Source of the DNA: Betaproteobacteria bacterium
Lineage (GTDB): Bacteria > Pseudomonadota > Gammaproteobacteria > Burkholderiales > SG8-41
Assembly (NCBI GenBank): GCA_021730905.1
Contig: JAKFYK010000061.1
Coordinates: forward strand, 1-64,000
DNA length: 64,000 nt
Direction: 5' to 3'
Every line of letters begins with the position of its first letter. Positions within the stretch are counted from its first letter, which is position 1. The position numbers were made by a program, and so were the translations under genes. The notes below the pieces were generated by a model. It made no database searches. It worked only from the letters and a program-made list of their open reading frames with translations, and was not told where the DNA came from. Positions 145 to 34,117 of the stretch are shown here, piece after piece.

Positions 145-432
145 TTAGATCACCGCCGTCATGATGCTGTCGATGATGTTCGGCACGTAGACCATGAAGA
201 GTGCGAACACCACGCCGATCAACGCCGGGATCGGCGAGGAGCGGGCGATACCGACGCCGGCACCGATGATGAAGGCGGCTATGGCGATCGACTTGCCGAG
301 GAAGCCGTTGATCCAGCCCAGCAGCGTTGCATACATGGTCTGAAACTCGGTACCGGTGGTGCCGGCCATTACGCTGCCGGCGGCAAGTGAGAGAACGAGG
401 GCGAGGACTACGGTGTTACGGGTGTTGCTCAT
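145..432 (-). CDS. TraA/VirB2-like conjugative pilin
   Basis: This 95-residue protein has a cleavable signal peptide (residues about 1-23, ending VMA) and two hydrophobic segments (about 45-62 and 70-93). That is the layout of VirB2/TraA propilins, which are processed and assembled into the conjugative pilus. It sits between a TraL-like gene and a VirB1-like transglycosylase on the same strand. A GGAGC ribosome site precedes the ATG. The family is inferred from size, topology and neighbours, because pilin sequences diverge strongly. Confidence 0.7.
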   Translation of the reverse strand: MSNTRNTVVLALVLSLAAGSVMAGTTGTEFQTMYATLLGWINGFLGKSIAIAAFIIGAGVGIARSSPIPALIGVVFALFMVYVPNIIDSIMTAVI

Positions 433-470: not shown

Positions 471-968
471 TTACCGTGACGCCGCCGCAGTGCTGATGCG
501 AGCGGTGAAAGCGGATGGGGTGTTATGCGTTGGCTTGTCGTCGTGTAAATGACGGCGCACTTTGTCGATATAGGTGCGCGCCAGCGCCGGATTGGGTGTG
601 TTATAGGCGCCTACGGCGTCCCACGTGTAGCCGAGACGCTGGATGTTTCCGGCGAGTATCCAGGCGCCGACGTGGATACTGGTGCATGGCTCAAAGAGAT
701 CACGTTCGCTGATGCCGTATCGGGACAGCGCCGGCAGCCACGCTGAGTTGATCTGCATGAGACCGATATCGCGTGAGCCGTTGGTGTTGCGTCCTATGGC
801 TTGCGGGTTCAAACCGGACTCGGTACGGGCGATAGCGTAAAGAAGGGTGCTGTTGACCTGGTAGCGTGTGGCGGCTTCTTCCCAGCAGGCATCGGCCGTG
901 GCGTTTGCGAAGCAAAGTGCCGCGACAGTGAGTCGCATTGACGCCTTCAGATGTTGCCGCTGCCGCAT
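471..968 (-). CDS. VirB1-like lytic transglycosylase
   Basis: The product is a soluble lytic transglycosylase (SLT fold, PF01464) that would open the peptidoglycan for the transfer apparatus. The start at 968 is chosen because AAAGGA lies seven bases upstream; it gives 165 residues. A signal peptide covers about residues 10-27. The catalytic glutamate is E50 in ARTESGLNP, followed by the family's GLMQIN motif and the AVGAYNT segment. It precedes the pilin gene in the same direction and is divergent from the TraI-like gene. A weaker alternative start lies 27 bases upstream. Confidence 0.85.
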   Translation of the reverse strand: MRQRQHLKASMRLTVAALCFANATADACWEEAATRYQVNSTLLYAIARTESGLNPQAIGRNTNGSRDIGLMQINSAWLPALSRYGISERDLFEPCTSIHVGAWILAGNIQRLGYTWDAVGAYNTPNPALARTYIDKVRRHLHDDKPTHNTPSAFTARISTAAASR

Positions 969-1381
969 TTCGATGTCCTTTCTGCCGTTGCACAACGCTT
1001 GTTAGTGAAGCGTGTGCATCGGCGCTTGAGAAACATCGTAAGGTGGCTGAACCGCGATTTATCGGGTGTTCAGACCCTGGGTGTGGTCACAAACATGCCC
1101 CTGAACCGAAATTTAAATTCTGCTAATTCGGCACATCACGGTTCGTGCTCGAACGTGTGATTTTCAGAGGGGAAAATTCATTTCGAGAGGTGTCGTTCAC
1201 CCGCAAAAACAGGTGCCGTAATTCGCCCGTGTTCAGACCCTGCACTGGGGTCTGAACACGGGGGATGTCCTCAAAGTGCCCGTCAATACTTGCGGCATGG
1301 GTAAGGCAAGTATCTTCAGGCAAGACCGGCTACAAGCACGGCAGCCGCGCTGCTGTCATACCGCTGAACGGGGCGACGCTG
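969..1381. other. Divergent intergenic region of the ICE; candidate oriT/regulatory region
   Basis: No convincing gene lies in this stretch between the divergent transglycosylase and TraI-like genes. It contains several small inverted repeats: GTTCG-TGCT-CGAAC at 1141-1154, TTTTC/GAAAA arms at 1161-1176, and the long repeat at 1228-1260. GTGTTCAGACCCTG occurs directly at 1066-1079 and again at 1229-1242. An AT-rich patch (AAATTTAAATT) lies near 1110-1120. Repeat-rich DNA beside a relaxase-like gene is where an origin of transfer is often found, but no nic site could be assigned. Confidence 0.4.
1228..1260. repeat. 13-bp perfect inverted repeat
   Basis: The arms CGTGTTCAGACCC (1228-1240) and GGGTCTGAACACG (1248-1260) are exact reverse complements around a seven-base loop. 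There is no T-tract on either side, so a simple rho-independent terminator is unlikely. A further copy of the left arm occurs at 1066. Possible roles are a protein-binding site, part of oriT, or a dispersed repeat. Confidence 0.8.
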
Positions 1382-2539
1382 ATGCGTGATGACCGCATGC
1401 ATATACAGCGCGCCCGGGTTGCGGGGCTATTGGACCGCCTGCGCATCAAGTCCGGCCTGCCTCTAGAGTTCTACCTGCAGGCCGTGCAGCCGGTGATCGA
1501 AGCGTACGCCGCGCATGTTCATGCGCTGCCTCGACTTGCATGCAATAACGTTGGTCAACCGAACTGTCTCTTTATGGACGGCCTGGAACTTGCCGGGTTC
1601 GCACTGGATTTCAGGCGGGGACGGATTTTGCCGCCGAACGCGGCACCGGAGGAAATCGGTGAACGAGCGCATCGCTGGACCTATGCCGTGTTTATGGCAG
1701 CGCTGCTACACCGGGGGTTGATGTCCGGCGTGTGTTTCCCGTCGCTCGGTTTGTTGCCGGCGCAAACTGTGGCGGGGGCCTTGAACGACCCTATCAAAGG
1801 CAAGGTAAGACAATCCGAAGTGCTGCCCGCAAGTCCGCTATTGCTGTTCAGACGCATGGTTCCGACAGCGATACAGACCTGGCTGGGCACAGACAACGCG
1901 CTCCTCGGGGAATTGCACGCATTTTTGATGAATGAGGAAACGGCACGCAGCGGCACCATCGGTCTTTTGATCGAGAGAGCCGTGGGCGAGTTCGTCCGCA
2001 TTCGTGGAGTAGGTGCCGCCACGTCCCTGCAGGAACGTGGCGACGTAATGATTATGCCGATCAGCGAAAACAAAGATTGCAGGGCCGTGCCTGCACCCAG
2101 TGCCGCGCCGCCCGTCCGCAGTGACTCTGAATGTAACGCCGCGGACCGGTTCATGAACTGGATAGCGGGTGGAATCAAGGATGGCAGCATCCTTATCAAC
2201 GAAGCCCGTGCGCCGGTGCATTTTGTGAGGGAGGGAATGTTGCTTGTCTCTCCGCGTATCTTCCGGGATTTTGCCAGACGCTTTGGTGAAGACGGCAACG
2301 GGGCTGCACAGTCCGGCAATGCAGATGAGCCCAGTCTTGGTAAAGAAATCCAGCGGCTGGTGCTGCGGGCTGGTTGGCACCGCAAAACCGATCACGGTAA
2401 TAATATTCAAAGCTACGAAGTGATCCAGAATGGCCGACCGGTGTCCGGGCTGTACGGCGTGCTGATTACGAAACCGCAACGCTTTCTCAGTCCGGTGCCG
2501 GCAGCGAACCCACTGTTGGTGCGCGAGGTGCCGACATGA
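1382..2539 (+). CDS. TraI/MobH-like protein (TraI_2 and TraI_2_C domains), apparently without catalytic motifs
   Basis: The N-terminal half resembles the TraI_2 domain (PF07514) of MOBH relaxases: LPLEFYLQAVQPVIEAYA, a MDGLELAGFAL segment, then RWTYAVFMAALL. The C-terminal part (FMNWIAGGIKDG to the end) resembles TraI_2_C (PF07515). The gene precedes traD with an ATGA overlap, which is the SXT traI-traD order. The protein is short (385 residues from this start; SXT TraI is about 716). The three-His motif and the HD motif of MOBH enzymes are absent: the equivalent places read LACNNVGQPN and LLHRGLM. It may be an accessory rather than an active relaxase. A longer reading from 1265 is possible, but that start follows directly on the inverted repeat. 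Confidence 0.65.
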   Translation: MRDDRMHIQRARVAGLLDRLRIKSGLPLEFYLQAVQPVIEAYAAHVHALPRLACNNVGQPNCLFMDGLELAGFALDFRRGRILPPNAAPEEIGERAHRWTYAVFMAALLHRGLMSGVCFPSLGLLPAQTVAGALNDPIKGKVRQSEVLPASPLLLFRRMVPTAIQTWLGTDNALLGELHAFLMNEETARSGTIGLLIERAVGEFVRIRGVGAATSLQERGDVMIMPISENKDCRAVPAPSAAPPVRSDSECNAADRFMNWIAGGIKDGSILINEARAPVHFVREGMLLVSPRIFRDFARRFGEDGNGAAQSGNADEPSLGKEIQRLVLRAGWHRKTDHGNNIQSYEVIQNGRPVSGLYGVLITKPQRFLSPVPAANPLLVREVPT

Positions 2540-4503
2540 GTTATCCGCTCGAAGCCCTGCTGCGGCCGGCGTTTGAACTGCGCGCGGCGCTGGCATCGAG
2601 TTTTGCTGCTACCGCAGTGCTGGTGACGCCATCCACGTTCATGCTTACCCGTGATCTTGCGTGGGGCTGTGCAGGAGTATTGGCTTGCCATGCGCTTTGG
2701 CGGGGCTGGGCGGGCTGGCGTGTGCTGCGTTATCGACGCAATCTACGGCGGCTCCAACCCTATGGTGTAAGTCCCGACAAAATCCCGTGCTCAAGCGAAC
2801 GATTGTTTCTGGGCAGGGGATTCCGCTGGGACCAGCGTCATACCCAGCGCTTGCACGAAGCCCGGCTCCCGGAAAATCAATTCTTATTGGAACTCGGGTT
2901 ACTGCGGCGGCTAACGCAAAAGCTGGTCCCTTCGCCTGTGGAGTTGTCCGCAGCTGGAGGAGACCCCGCCATACATGGCGTCGAGCCGCGTGACGCAGAT
3001 GTCTGGATGAATCTGTCGGAACGTGTGGGGCATTTGCTGGTGTTGGGCACAACGCGCGTGGGTAAGACGCGGCTGGCAGAACTGCTGATCGCACAGGACA
3101 TACGGCGCGGAGAAGTGGTGATCGTATTTGATCCCAAGGGTGATATCGATTTGCTGCGTCGCGTCTATGCAGAAGCCAAGCGCGCAGGGCGGGGGGGCGA
3201 ATTCTTCATGTTCCATCTGGGACACCCGGAAGTTTCGGCTCGATATAACCCGGTGGGAAGTTTTTCCAGGATCACTGAGGTGGCTACACGTATTGCCGGT
3301 CAACTGCCATCCGAGGGGCAGTCGGCAGCGTTCAAGGAGTTCGTGTGGCGCTACGTGAACGTGATGGCGCGCGCGCTGGTGGCGCTTGGTCGCAAGCCCG
3401 ACTACGAGCAGATCAATCGCTATGCGTCGAATATCGAGCCCTTGCTGATCGATTATTTCGAGCACTGGCTCGATAAAGAACTGACGGCTGCGGGCTGGCG
3501 CGATGCGATTGAGGCGATGGCGATCGATAAGAAGGATCTGGACAAAGCGCTGCAGACGCGCGGTTCGCGCGCCGTGATGCTGGTGGAGTACGCGAGGCGC
3601 GGCAAGCTCTACGATCCCATCGCGCATGCGCTGTCCTCCACCCTCAATTACGAGAAAAGCTATTTCGACAAACTGGTCGCGTCCTTGTTGCCGCTGCTCG
3701 AGAAGCTGACCACGGGGCGCACCGCCGCTTTGCTGTCACCGGATTTTAATGATTTGTCGGATTGGCGCCCGGCATTTGACTGGGCGTCGGTCATCAACCT
3801 GCGCGGCATTGTTTACGTGGGACTGGATTCGCTGAGCGATTACGAGGTGGCCGCAGCCGTGGGTAATGCCATGTTCGCCGATCTCACCAGCGTTGCAGGT
3901 AGCCTCTACAAATATGGAACGGGCAGAGGACTTCCGGGTGAGACAGCACCACGACGGATAGCAATTCATGCCGATGAGTTCAATGAGCTTATTGGCGACG
4001 AGTTCATTCCGTTGCTCAACAAGGCGGGTGGCGCAGGGTTTCAGGTGACGGCGTATACACAGACCTGGTCGGATGTGGAGGCGCGGATCGGGTCTCAAGC
4101 GAAAGCGGGGCAGATCGCCGGAAACTTCAACAGCATGATCATGCTCCGGGTGAAGGAAGTAGCAACGGCGGAGCTTCTGACCAGTCAACTGACGGAGGTT
4201 CGGGTAGTGTCAACCATTGCTTCCTCTTCAGTATCAGATACCAATGATCCTGGGGATTTTGCGGACTTTGCGAGCCGCAATGAAGACCGCATTACGACCG
4301 AAGGCGCTGCAATGCTATCGCCGAGCGACCTGGTGCAATTGCCGAAGGGGCAGGCCTTTGCATTGCTGCATGGCGGACAGCTTTACAAGATATGCATGCC
4401 GTTACCGGATAGCAGTCATGATTCCCTGATGCCGGTGAATCTTGTGGCGATTGGTGATGAGATCAGATGCCGGCTGACGGGCACGATAGTTTCGTCAACC
4501 TGA
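2536..4503 (+). CDS. traD: TraD-like conjugative coupling ATPase (SXT/TOL type)
   Basis: This 655-residue protein is a type IV coupling protein, which links the relaxosome to the secretion channel. Two membrane segments lie near the N-terminus (about 20-60). A Walker A motif, GTTRVGKT, is at residues 171-178. A VIVFDPKGD strand follows, and the acidic motif IHADEFNEL lies in the second half, followed by a TQTWSD segment typical of VirD4/TraD hexameric ATPases. Length and order fit the SXT/TOL subfamily. Translation is coupled to the TraI-like gene through an ATGA overlap. Confidence 0.88.
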   Translation: MSYPLEALLRPAFELRAALASSFAATAVLVTPSTFMLTRDLAWGCAGVLACHALWRGWAGWRVLRYRRNLRRLQPYGVSPDKIPCSSERLFLGRGFRWDQRHTQRLHEARLPENQFLLELGLLRRLTQKLVPSPVELSAAGGDPAIHGVEPRDADVWMNLSERVGHLLVLGTTRVGKTRLAELLIAQDIRRGEVVIVFDPKGDIDLLRRVYAEAKRAGRGGEFFMFHLGHPEVSARYNPVGSFSRITEVATRIAGQLPSEGQSAAFKEFVWRYVNVMARALVALGRKPDYEQINRYASNIEPLLIDYFEHWLDKELTAAGWRDAIEAMAIDKKDLDKALQTRGSRAVMLVEYARRGKLYDPIAHALSSTLNYEKSYFDKLVASLLPLLEKLTTGRTAALLSPDFNDLSDWRPAFDWASVINLRGIVYVGLDSLSDYEVAAAVGNAMFADLTSVAGSLYKYGTGRGLPGETAPRRIAIHADEFNELIGDEFIPLLNKAGGAGFQVTAYTQTWSDVEARIGSQAKAGQIAGNFNSMIMLRVKEVATAELLTSQLTEVRVVSTIASSSVSDTNDPGDFADFASRNEDRITTEGAAMLSPSDLVQLPKGQAFALLHGGQLYKICMPLPDSSHDSLMPVNLVAIGDEIRCRLTGTIVSST

Positions 4504-4525: not shown

Positions 4526-5242
4526 ATGTTGGCGTCCAGGAACGCATCGTTTTACGAAAACGGAATCGGCGGTCTGTTGCTGGCACCCTTGAAGTGGCTT
4601 GGTGTTGGCGTGATGCTCCTCTTTGGCCTGCTTGTGGCAGCATGGGTTATCGATGGATTATTCGTGTTCCAGGTTTGGCCGGACGGAATATTAAGGTTGA
4701 GGAATATTCTCGAGGAGGAACTTGCGCGGACTACCCAAATGTACTGCTGGTGTGGAGATTTGCACCGGCGGGCCGTAGGAACCGCCAATTCACTTTATTC
4801 ATTGATCTTTCGGGCAACTGGCATTCATGACATGAATGCACGGTTTGCGGAGAACACGGCACTTTCCATTCCCGACACCATTGTACGCAACGGGTATTTG
4901 GCAAATTTTGAGGGAATACGGGTCGCCATGCTGGGGACACAACTTATCGGTGTCAGGCTGGCGACAATGGTCGCAGCATTGCCACTGATGGCTTTGACTT
5001 ATGGAGTCGCCATGACAGACGGGATTACCCAGCGCGCTATTCGTCGCGTAAGCGGTGGGCGCGAATCGAGCAGTATTTATCACCGTGCCAAGTATCTCCA
5101 GTTGGCGCTCCTCGTAACGTCTGCGACGATATTTCTGCTATGGCCTTCAACGGTCGATTTGCTTGTGATTTGCAGCATTGCTGCGGGTATTGCAGCCGTT
5201 CTGGTGCGCGTGCAATGGTGCTATTACAAGAAGCATCTTTAA
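4526..5242 (+). CDS. ICE membrane protein, DUF4400 family (PFL_4697 type)
   Basis: The 238-residue product has hydrophobic segments at about residues 15-50, 145-165 and 190-230, and a conserved-looking middle part with GIHDMNARF and MTDGITQRAIRRVSGGRES. This matches the DUF4400/TIGR03747 integrating-element membrane proteins usually encoded just after traD. Its biochemical role is not known. It is 22 bases downstream of traD. It is the last recognisable transfer gene before the metal cargo. Confidence 0.75.
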   Translation: MLASRNASFYENGIGGLLLAPLKWLGVGVMLLFGLLVAAWVIDGLFVFQVWPDGILRLRNILEEELARTTQMYCWCGDLHRRAVGTANSLYSLIFRATGIHDMNARFAENTALSIPDTIVRNGYLANFEGIRVAMLGTQLIGVRLATMVAALPLMALTYGVAMTDGITQRAIRRVSGGRESSSIYHRAKYLQLALLVTSATIFLLWPSTVDLLVICSIAAGIAAVLVRVQWCYYKKHL

Positions 5243-5552: not shown

Positions 5553-7928
5553 TCAGGAAAGGCGCGTGCCACGCAGCCGCAGTGCATTAGTAACCACGGA
5601 AACAGAACTCAATGCCATCGCGGCACCGGCAAAAACCGGTGACAACAGAAGTCCCATAGCTGGGTAGAGTACGCCTGCGGCGACCGGAATGCCCAGCGCG
5701 TTATAGCCGAATGCGAAGGTGAGATTCTGTCGGATATTGCGCATCGTTGCGCGCGACAGAACGGCGGCGCGTGCAATACCTCGCAGATCGCCTTTGATGA
5801 GCGTGATGCCGGCACTTTCCATGGCGACATCGGTTCCTGTTCCCATTGCAATGCCTACGTTTGCTTGTGCGAGCGCCGGTGCATCGTTGATACCATCGCC
5901 GGCCATTGCAACTTTGCGCCCTTCGGCTTGCAGACGTTTGACGTGACCAGCCTTGTCTTCAGGTAATACTTCAGCTAGGGCGACATCGATACCGAGTTTG
6001 CGGGCGACGGCCTCTGCCGTGCTGCGCGCATCGCCTGTAAGCATCACAATGCTCATGCCTGCTTGTTTGAGCGATGTTATTGCTTCCGCAGTACTGTCTT
6101 TAATGGGGTCAGCCACGGCTGCAATCCCCGCAGCGTTGGTGTTGATGGCGAAGAAAACCACCGTTTTGGCTTCAGTGCGCCATGCTTCGGCACGTGCGTC
6201 CCATTGCCGGGTATCGACGCCATGTTGCGCGAGAAATGCGCTGCTGCCGACAAGTAGTCGTTTACCGTCAACACTGGCCTGTACTCCCAGGCCGTTAATG
6301 GCATCGAATGCGGTAGCTACGGCAGGACTGAGACCGCGCGCCCGGGCACCCTCGACGATAGCGAGGCCTATGGGGTGCTCGGACAGTTGCTCGACACCCG
6401 ATACCAGCGTAAGTGCTTCGTTTTCGGGTATGCCGTCAGTGACAAAATCCGTCATCACCGGATGGCCCAGCGTTAGCGTTCCGGTTTTGTCCACCACCAC
6501 GGTATCGATGTCCTGCATGCGTTCGATCGCCTCGGCGTCACGAAAAAGAATGCCTCCACGAGCGCCTTCTCCCATGGCAACCGTCATTGAGATGGGCGTG
6601 GCAAGACCCACCGCACAAGGGCACGCGATGATCAACACGGCAATGGCATTGAGCAGCGCATAGACCAGCTTCGGTTCCGGCCCGAAAAACCACCAGACGA
6701 GTGCTGTCGCGATGGCGATGACAACAACGATTTGGACAAAATATGCTGCGATGGTGTCGGCGAGCCGCTGGATCGGCGCACGCGTGCGCTGTGCTTCTCC
6801 AACCATGTGTACGATCCTGGCGAGCAGCGTGTCCGCTCCCACGCGTTCGGCACGGATTGTCAGGGCGCCATTGCCATTGACCGTTGCGCCGGTTACTTTG
6901 TCGCCTGCGGCCTTTGCTACAGGTACGGGTTCACCAGTGATCATGGATTCGTCGACTCTGCTCGTGCCACCAACTACTGTACCGTCGACTGGCAATTTTT
7001 CCCCCGGTTTGACGCGCAGACGGTCGCCCACGATTATTACATCGAGTGCGACTTGCTCCTCGGTATCATCGGCGCGTAAACGCCAGGCGAGATTGGGCGC
7101 GAGTTTAAGCAATTGTTGAATCGCCTGACTGGTTTGCCCCATCGCCCTTAGTTGCAGAAAGTCGCCAAGTATTACTAGCGTTACGATCACTGCGGCTGCT
7201 TCGAAATACGTGCCTACGGCACCATCATGTTCGCGAAATTCCTGTGGAAATACTCCGGGGAATAGCACTGCGGCCAGGCTGAAAAGGTAGGCGAGCCCAA
7301 CGCCCAGTCCGATCAGCGTATACATGTTGAGTGCGCGGTGTGTGAGCGACAGCCAGAACTTTCGCAAAATCGGCCATCCGACCCAAAGCACTACCGGTGT
7401 TCCCAGCGTGAACTCTATCCAGCCACGCAGGCGGGGCTGGATACCAAACAGATCGTGTATCCCGATCATGGGTGACATGGCCAGGATCAGAAGGGGTATC
7501 GACAGTGCAGACCCGACCCAGAACCTGCGCCTTAGATCATGCAGTTCTGTGTCATCGGCTTCGCCGGTGCCGGCAACAGGCACCAGTGCCATGCCGCAAA
7601 GGGGGCAGTCTCCCGGGGCATCACGCAGGATTTCCGGATGCATGGGGCAGGTGTACTGTGTGCCCCGGGCGGCTTTTGGCAATTGCGCCTGCTTTTCCTG
7701 ACCGAGATATTTCGCTGGATCGGCCTGGAATTGTGCAAGGCAATGCTTGCTGCAAAAGTAATAAAGGGTTCCGTCATGCCGATGCGACCCCGCCGCTGAC
7801 TGCGGATTGATTCGCATACCGCAGACTGGATCGGTTTCCTGAGCTGTGGTGTCGTGATTTCCCTTACAACAGGCGCGACCGTGGTGGCTTTCGTGATCAT
7901 GACCATGATGTTGATGTGTTGAGTTCAT
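5553..7928 (-). CDS. copA: Copper/silver-type P1B ATPase with YHS and heavy-metal-binding domains
   Basis: The 791-residue protein starts with a His-rich segment, then a YHS domain (DPVCGMRI...YYFCSKHC, about 34-75) and a heavy-metal-binding domain (CPMHPEI...[10 protein letters not shown], about 94-117). The membrane ATPase core follows. The metal site CPC is at C436-P-C438 in [12 protein letters not shown]. The phosphorylated aspartate is D480 (DKTGT), and the hinge is GDGIND. The CPC class and the N-terminal domains point to Cu(I)/Ag(I) export to the periplasm, like CopA or SilP. A divergent MerR regulator and a 20-bp-spacer promoter lie directly upstream. Confidence 0.92.

Positions 7929-34070: not shown

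Positions 34071-34117
<47 letters not shown>

Follow-up and report, generated by a model that had tools for sequence, protein, structure and literature searches.

A plasmid or island is usually called mobile on the strength of a relaxase gene. The stretch of DNA analysed here, referred to as the window (64,000 nucleotides), starts at the first base of contig C24, within a conjugation cluster in which the place of the relaxase gene traI is taken by a short open reading frame resembling MOBH relaxases. This raises the question whether the encoded protein can still nick DNA and, if not, what the gene is retained for. The features on which the following sections draw are:

145–432, minus strand: traA pilin gene, divergent (NCBIfam profile)
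471–995, minus strand: ltgX-like lytic transglycosylase gene, divergent (Pfam profile)
1226–1262, no strand assigned: perfect 15-bp inverted repeat with a 7-nt loop in the ltgX–traI intergenic region (repeat search)
1285–1299, plus strand: AATACT-N6-ATG signature, its ATG at 1297 out of frame with traI
1382–2539, plus strand: short degenerate traI (putative MOBH-like pseudo-relaxase), 385 aa (ORF, profile searches and alignment)
1406–1711, plus strand: TraI_2 or HD-like half, residues 9–110 (Pfam, 45.6 bits, cut-off 23.9)
1544–1552, plus strand: residues 55–57 (N N V), replacing the HHH motif (alignment)
1577–1579, plus strand: residue 66 (D), replacing the fourth invariant His (alignment)
1709–1714, plus strand: residues 110–111 (H R), replacing the HD motif (alignment)
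2138–2518, plus strand: conserved TraI_2_C winged-helix domain, residues 253–379 (Pfam, 84.3 bits, cut-off 27.3)
2536–4503, plus strand: traD, type IV coupling protein with Walker motifs (conj_TOL_TraD, 849.6 bits), overlapping traI by 4 nt
4526–5242, plus strand: yaa-type gene (DUF4400, 77.5 bits, above cut-off; TIGR03747, 83.8 bits, below cut-off)
34085–34115, plus strand: tRNA 3'-end-like sequence (by eye), sole copy in the assembly; no intact tRNA in the window

The gene order is GGI-like, with LtgX-TraA divergent from TraI-TraD-Yaa. As a first, sequence-only reading of this DNA had stated, the short gene occupies the traI place before traD and its product displays the TraI_2/TraI_2_C layout. 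The gene overlaps traD, and both domains score above their gathering cut-offs, indicating MOBH homology at the profile level. The NCBIfam MobH model gives the protein 85 bits, and the curated cut-off of 200 is not reached; six short proteins score 78–156 bits versus 321–329 bits for four intact MobH proteins. Compared to intact TraI, roughly 200 residues or more are missing between the HD domain and the C-terminal domain. The body of the gene is a single open frame continuing into traD, and a second in-frame ATG at position 1265 extends this frame to 424 aa. A sequence search of the PDB with the window protein yielded two weak matches (3kq5 and 2ipq), which begin in or near the winged-helix part, and a structure prediction for this protein, made with three relatives (mean pLDDT 49), was too poor for use. 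No match to TraC_F_IV was found in the assembly of the window, the contig of which begins inside the transfer cluster.

Further downstream, the tRNA 3'-end-like sequence at 34085–34115 is likely to represent an attachment site and the edge of the element. As integration site of the window element guaA was rejected, the 3' end of guaA from genome G321 being absent from the window within 4 mismatches in 20 or 6 in 26 positions. Between positions 5553 and 30424 the window carries metal-resistance cargo, comprising CopA-type and ZntA-like P-type ATPases, two CusA/CzcA efflux pumps and a sensor histidine kinase.

Pocket residues and the short-TraI family

Residues 54–62 of the window protein read CNNVGQPNC, where the intact protein of locus L004 reads SHHHANAGG, and residues 108–112 read LLHRG, where L004 has LLHDV. 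The replacement of the HHH and HD motifs, already noted from the letters alone, is thereby confirmed. For a wider comparison, 11 short proteins were aligned with 26 long MobH comparators (from genomes, one Burkholderiales MAG and three plasmids), and eight pocket columns of our own choice were scored (H1, H2, H3, H4, H5, D5, H6 and D). All eight are invariant in 26 of 26 comparators; the long protein of G129 was set apart once its ligand loss was seen, and if it is counted, 26 of 27 long ORFs keep all eight. In the window protein, H5 is the sole residue of the eight retained. None of the ten short proteins still having the region keeps the complete ligand set: HHH is present in 0/10, versus 26/26 comparators, and H6 and the last Asp are lost or deleted in every case. 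The ligands lost differ from member to member, with four of the eight surviving in G026, and no conserved new set of His, Asp or Glu residues replacing them is visible across the ten aligned sequences. The same ten proteins all retain the core Trp and Leu beside the pocket; likewise, the winged-helix residues Trp, Gly, Asn and His are retained in the 10 short proteins having that domain.

Beyond the alignment, a motif search detected HHH and HD in G112, G304, G415, the second copy of G191 and one copy on C31 of G160, and no motif region in the examined stretches of G210 and another G160 copy. Both motifs are also intact in nine comparators with traI near traD (G481, G660, G584, G613, G700, G581, G345, L030 and L031). 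The protein set apart from the comparators (L016, 1279–3030; contig C55 of G129) is a long MobH with HHH and HD lost, located before an ORF that is traD-like by eye; with 227.8 bits it passes the NCBIfam MobH cut-off.

The short form is found in 11 genomes (that of the window, G026, G078, G147, G171, G233, G244, G270, G307, G321 and G382), which belong to nine genera in seven families of a single order. Searches gave matches in 13 genomes among 199 relatives and in 37 among 399 genomes of the order, the own genome being counted in both; the remaining matches are intact, degenerate in another manner (G129) or, as matches of the 399-genome search without loci, outside inspection. In 11 of 11 genomes the short traI directly precedes traD or the start of traD. 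Among the ten copies besides that of the window, the fold core and the C-terminal winged helix are each retained in nine; the winged helix is missing from the G321 protein and the HD-like half from that of G147. A class-wide search with TraD, which gave a match in 29 of 369 genomes (own genome included), added G772 and G799. Only the last 73 codons of traI are on the contig in G772, where an HD-like tail joins the final residues without a winged helix. In G799 traD is cut short and traI was not found there; this traD remnant (L135, 34.5–38.8 kb of C21) lacks its N-terminal part and, by eye, adjoins guaA. Since three loci have lost a domain (G321, G772 and G147), none of the domains is required by all elements. 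When viral contigs were scanned, no relative was found with the short family and two with intact MobH. Sequence comparison supports the view that the short degenerate MobH-like proteins form a distinct subfamily; no description of an inactive MOBH family was found among the papers listed by searches of open-licence PMC literature.

Overlap with traD, the leader and selection

A 4-nt overlap between traI and traD is found in the window, G147, G307, G321 and G772, even where domains have been lost. In a tree of 30 TraD sequences, short loci were represented by ten of the eleven genomes and by G772, G171 being omitted due to a TraD cut by the contig end. The 11 short-locus TraDs form one branch (100/100), present in all of 200 bootstrap trees. 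This branch is sister to G345, L030 and L031, all with intact TraI, and is nested among intact-TraI elements. Identity among ten members amounts to 65–95% for TraD and 17–85% for TraI. The topology fits a single ancestral turn to the short form, followed by further loss; several losses inside the clade may have occurred instead, since G026 still has four ligands. Of the distinct accessory subfamily proposed at first reading, the subfamily has held up: its 11 loci belong to a single TraD clade, none of the 10 proteins with the region retains all ligands, and core and winged helix are conserved in most.

Upstream of traI, the pattern [AG]ATACT-N6-[AG]TG occurs in all nine examined short loci with a retained leader. 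It was not found in the 1.1 kb preceding each of eight intact traI genes, nor in the 0.3 kb examined of a ninth (G613). In 1.59 million strand-bases of loci longer than 15 kb the pattern is present ten times, five of these being short-traI sites and five lying elsewhere. A sequence model built from the nine leaders ranks those nine top, as expected by construction, and detects a weaker second site in the same intergenic region of G270 (E 0.0002). In two of the nine, G321 and the window (ATG at 1297), the ATG typical of the clade does not share the reading frame of traI, so that the start codon or 5' end of the window traI is uncertain. The inverted repeat beats the best of 100 shuffles of its own leader in only three cases, at 15 bp in the window, at 19 bp in L030 and by a narrow margin in L031. 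A hairpin common to all leaders was rejected, as single folds disagree between members. In the GGI, the oriT is located in the ltgX–traI intergenic region, according to the portion of PMC4207684 used here. The leader region of the window, together with its inverted repeat, may contain an oriT, an operator or a promoter.

Pairwise dN/dS values are 0.07–0.15 for traD (six pairs), 0.17–0.34 for yaa (six pairs) and 0.31–0.50 for traI (seven pairs), and are to be taken as rough, since some sequences recur in several pairs and dS approaches saturation in the distant ones. Within traI, the winged helix gives 0.20–0.39, with a bootstrap range below 1 in five of five pairs, and the HD-like half 0.35–0.61, with a range below 1 in four of five pairs; for G307/G147 it spans 0.26–1.32. 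The best reading of these values is that traI is presumably under weak purifying selection and less constrained than traD.

With moderate confidence, the traI product is regarded as an inactive MOBH pseudo-relaxase of a GGI-like F-type system on an integrative element, which could serve as a non-catalytic partner coupled to TraD. With the HD metal pocket gone and the middle deleted, the protein would no longer nick DNA, while the winged helix and the HD-like shell would persist as a non-catalytic link of TraD to DNA or the relaxosome; such a structural link is suggested by analogy with IncC TraI in SGI1 transfer. Translation of traI might also couple that of traD. Any transfer would need another nickase, on the element or in trans, to cut oriT.

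The main rival, and a close one, is a decaying relaxase gene, the ORF of which stays open only through translational coupling to traD, leaving the protein idle. The persistence of the 4-nt overlap despite domain losses, the much faster evolution of TraI than of TraD, the variation of pocket residues between members and the out-of-frame ATG in two of nine leaders are all in line with such decay. However, the bootstrap range of dN/dS lies below 1 in nine of ten domain-by-pair tests, albeit with pairs that are not independent, and the core and winged-helix residues are invariant among divergent members having them. Decay to an idle protein appears possible, though on the unlikely side. As for the accessory part of the initial proposal, a function of this kind we only infer: dN/dS exceeds that of traD, though it stays below 1 in most tests, and three loci have lost a domain.

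Transfer machinery and the search for another relaxase

If the short TraI is an inactive partner of TraD, both the state of the transfer machinery and the presence of other relaxases become relevant. In three relatives on long contigs the systems are GGI-like and F-type, and the islands bearing them carry defence genes. In G078, NCBIfam models match TraG, TraH, TraF, TraN, TraU, TraW, a TraF-type peptidase, TraC, TraB and TraK, some below curated cut-offs, TraL, TraE and TraV lying outside this search. The ten-gene set is matched by blastp in G321 and G233, TraG of the latter running off its contig. It is also matched in G382, but there traU and traG are broken and lie in several frames, so that at least one short-TraI system is itself decaying. 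On contig C7 of this genome traU/traG are situated at 278–292 kb (L081–L082), and a second, fragmentary traD-yaa copy is found at 233–238 kb, about 30 kb off. All four TraC proteins examined contain Walker motifs, as does TraD of the window, and the ORFs of G321 include a TrbC_Ftype match.

Genes of the G321 element run from yaa (15.2 kb) as far as an integrase (72.5–73.8 kb) that adjoins guaA (recognised by eye), and include ParA and ParB, both resembling annotated plasmid genes, as well as DUF2857, DUF3577, RadC and DUF932. The element looks like a whole ICE, with the left edge not mapped. A CBASS-type E1-E2, a SAVED-HNH effector and a TIR protein are encoded on C25 of G321 (L084–L086), in the element or its surroundings. 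Other defence genes in or around short-TraI elements are Gabija GajA and GajB in G147 (L042), Wadjet JetABCD in G382 (L080) and GajA in G078 (L034).

The whole-genome relaxase search covered MobH, TrwC and PF03432. MobH above cut-off, TrwC and PF03432 (E 0.001) gave no match in any of the 11 short-TraI genomes, and the genome of the window contains no second MobH-like gene above cut-off. From the G321 element, 17 proteins scanned singly and 25 ORFs scanned together (two in both) matched no relaxase family. Since the contigs bearing short loci are mostly small or broken, this absence is informative mainly for G321 and less so for G078 and G382; in the window it means little, because the element is cut off at the contig end. 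The initial suggestion that a different relaxase is encoded elsewhere thus found no backing in the 11 genomes or in the scanned ORFs of G321, the only element that looks complete.

A takeover by another relaxase on the element, for instance a PF12834/PF12835 tyrosine recombinase acting like MpsA, MobK or TcpM, is improbable. Such a recombinase shares a contig stretch with the T4SS in G078, G321 and G382, with DUF932, RadC and DUF3577 genes nearby, and PF12834 is found in 6 of 11 short-TraI versus 0 of 14 intact-MobH genomes (Fisher p 0.0026). Moreover, a related protein occurs in 194 plasmid records, of which 118 are typed as non-mobilizable. However, PF12834 is also present in 6 of 16 relatives without TraI (p 0.45 versus the short group) and is therefore not specific. 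The recombinase is missing from five of the 11 short genomes, including G233 (98% complete) and G270 (99%), is broken into two frames in G382, and in G000 both copies are found on other contigs, where the stretches examined contain none of the other module genes. The tyrosine-recombinase-like relaxases MpsA, MobK and TcpM are devoid of the core-binding domain of integrases. The linked recombinase P0005, however, matches PF12834, an integrase N-terminal domain which we take to be the core-binding domain.

That the short TraI still nicks DNA via displaced ligands is very unlikely: activity might have faded gradually, with G026 keeping four of eight ligands, but the window protein is left with one, and the alignment reveals neither a displaced HHH/HD set nor a conserved substitute across the ten. 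An assembly or sequencing error, or the splitting of a longer relaxase, is hardly credible, for although the window starts at a contig end and a frame change may be present at the 5' end of the ORF, the traI body is one open frame into traD and the short form recurs in ten other, independent genomes.

Tentatively, the broader picture could be that a MOBH relaxase became a non-catalytic TraD adaptor, with transfer begun by a nickase of unrecognised kind or with the T4SS being used other than for transfer of its own DNA. In short-TraI elements the profile indicates a MobH-like protein while the active site is gone; the coupling protein, like several of the transfer genes, is well conserved. A MobH profile match does not show catalysis; G129 passes the cut-off with its motifs lost. 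Two testable questions follow, namely whether MOBH TraI has a non-nicking job and whether an F-type T4SS can be fed by something else.

Comparison with known systems

The window cluster resembles the GGI in the arrangement of Yaa-TraD-TraI divergent from LtgX-TraA and in an HD-type TraI with a C-terminal domain, and relatives such as G078 share F-type transfer genes with the GGI, as far as these are described in the consulted parts of PMC4207684 and PMC12857230. According to the same parts, GGI TraI contains the 3H and HD motifs, both of which are required for cleavage (PMC4207684, PMC12857230); in contrast, the short TraI lacks both and its centre is deleted.

MobH of the Burkholderia plasmids (L030, L031) and of G345 is comparable with regard to the sister position of TraD and to a traI that precedes co-directional traD and yaa genes. 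However, their ORFs of 683–718 aa have HHH and HD intact, and L030 and L031 score above the MobH cut-off. The degenerate MobH of G129 likewise has lost HHH and HD and directly precedes a traD-like ORF (by eye), but is a long form of 583–587 aa above the MobH cut-off and looks like a separate lineage.

A GGI-like T4SS without an identified relaxase has a parallel in Dechloromonas aromatica, for which the section of PMC4207684 consulted names none and the authors suggest sharing of the relaxase of a second system. In the SGI1/IncC pair, IncC TraI is needed for conjugation of the plasmid itself and SGI1 supplies MpsA and MpsB, which distinguishes it from the short TraI (PMC6414798, PMC9299015, in the parts available). 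For SGI1 mobilisation, however, IncC TraI is not essential, and its loss lowers mobilisation by about 3 to 5 logs (same part of PMC6414798). Like the role proposed here for the short TraI, this is a MOBH TraI that aids transfer without being the essential nickase, as portrayed in those parts of PMC6414798 and PMC9299015.
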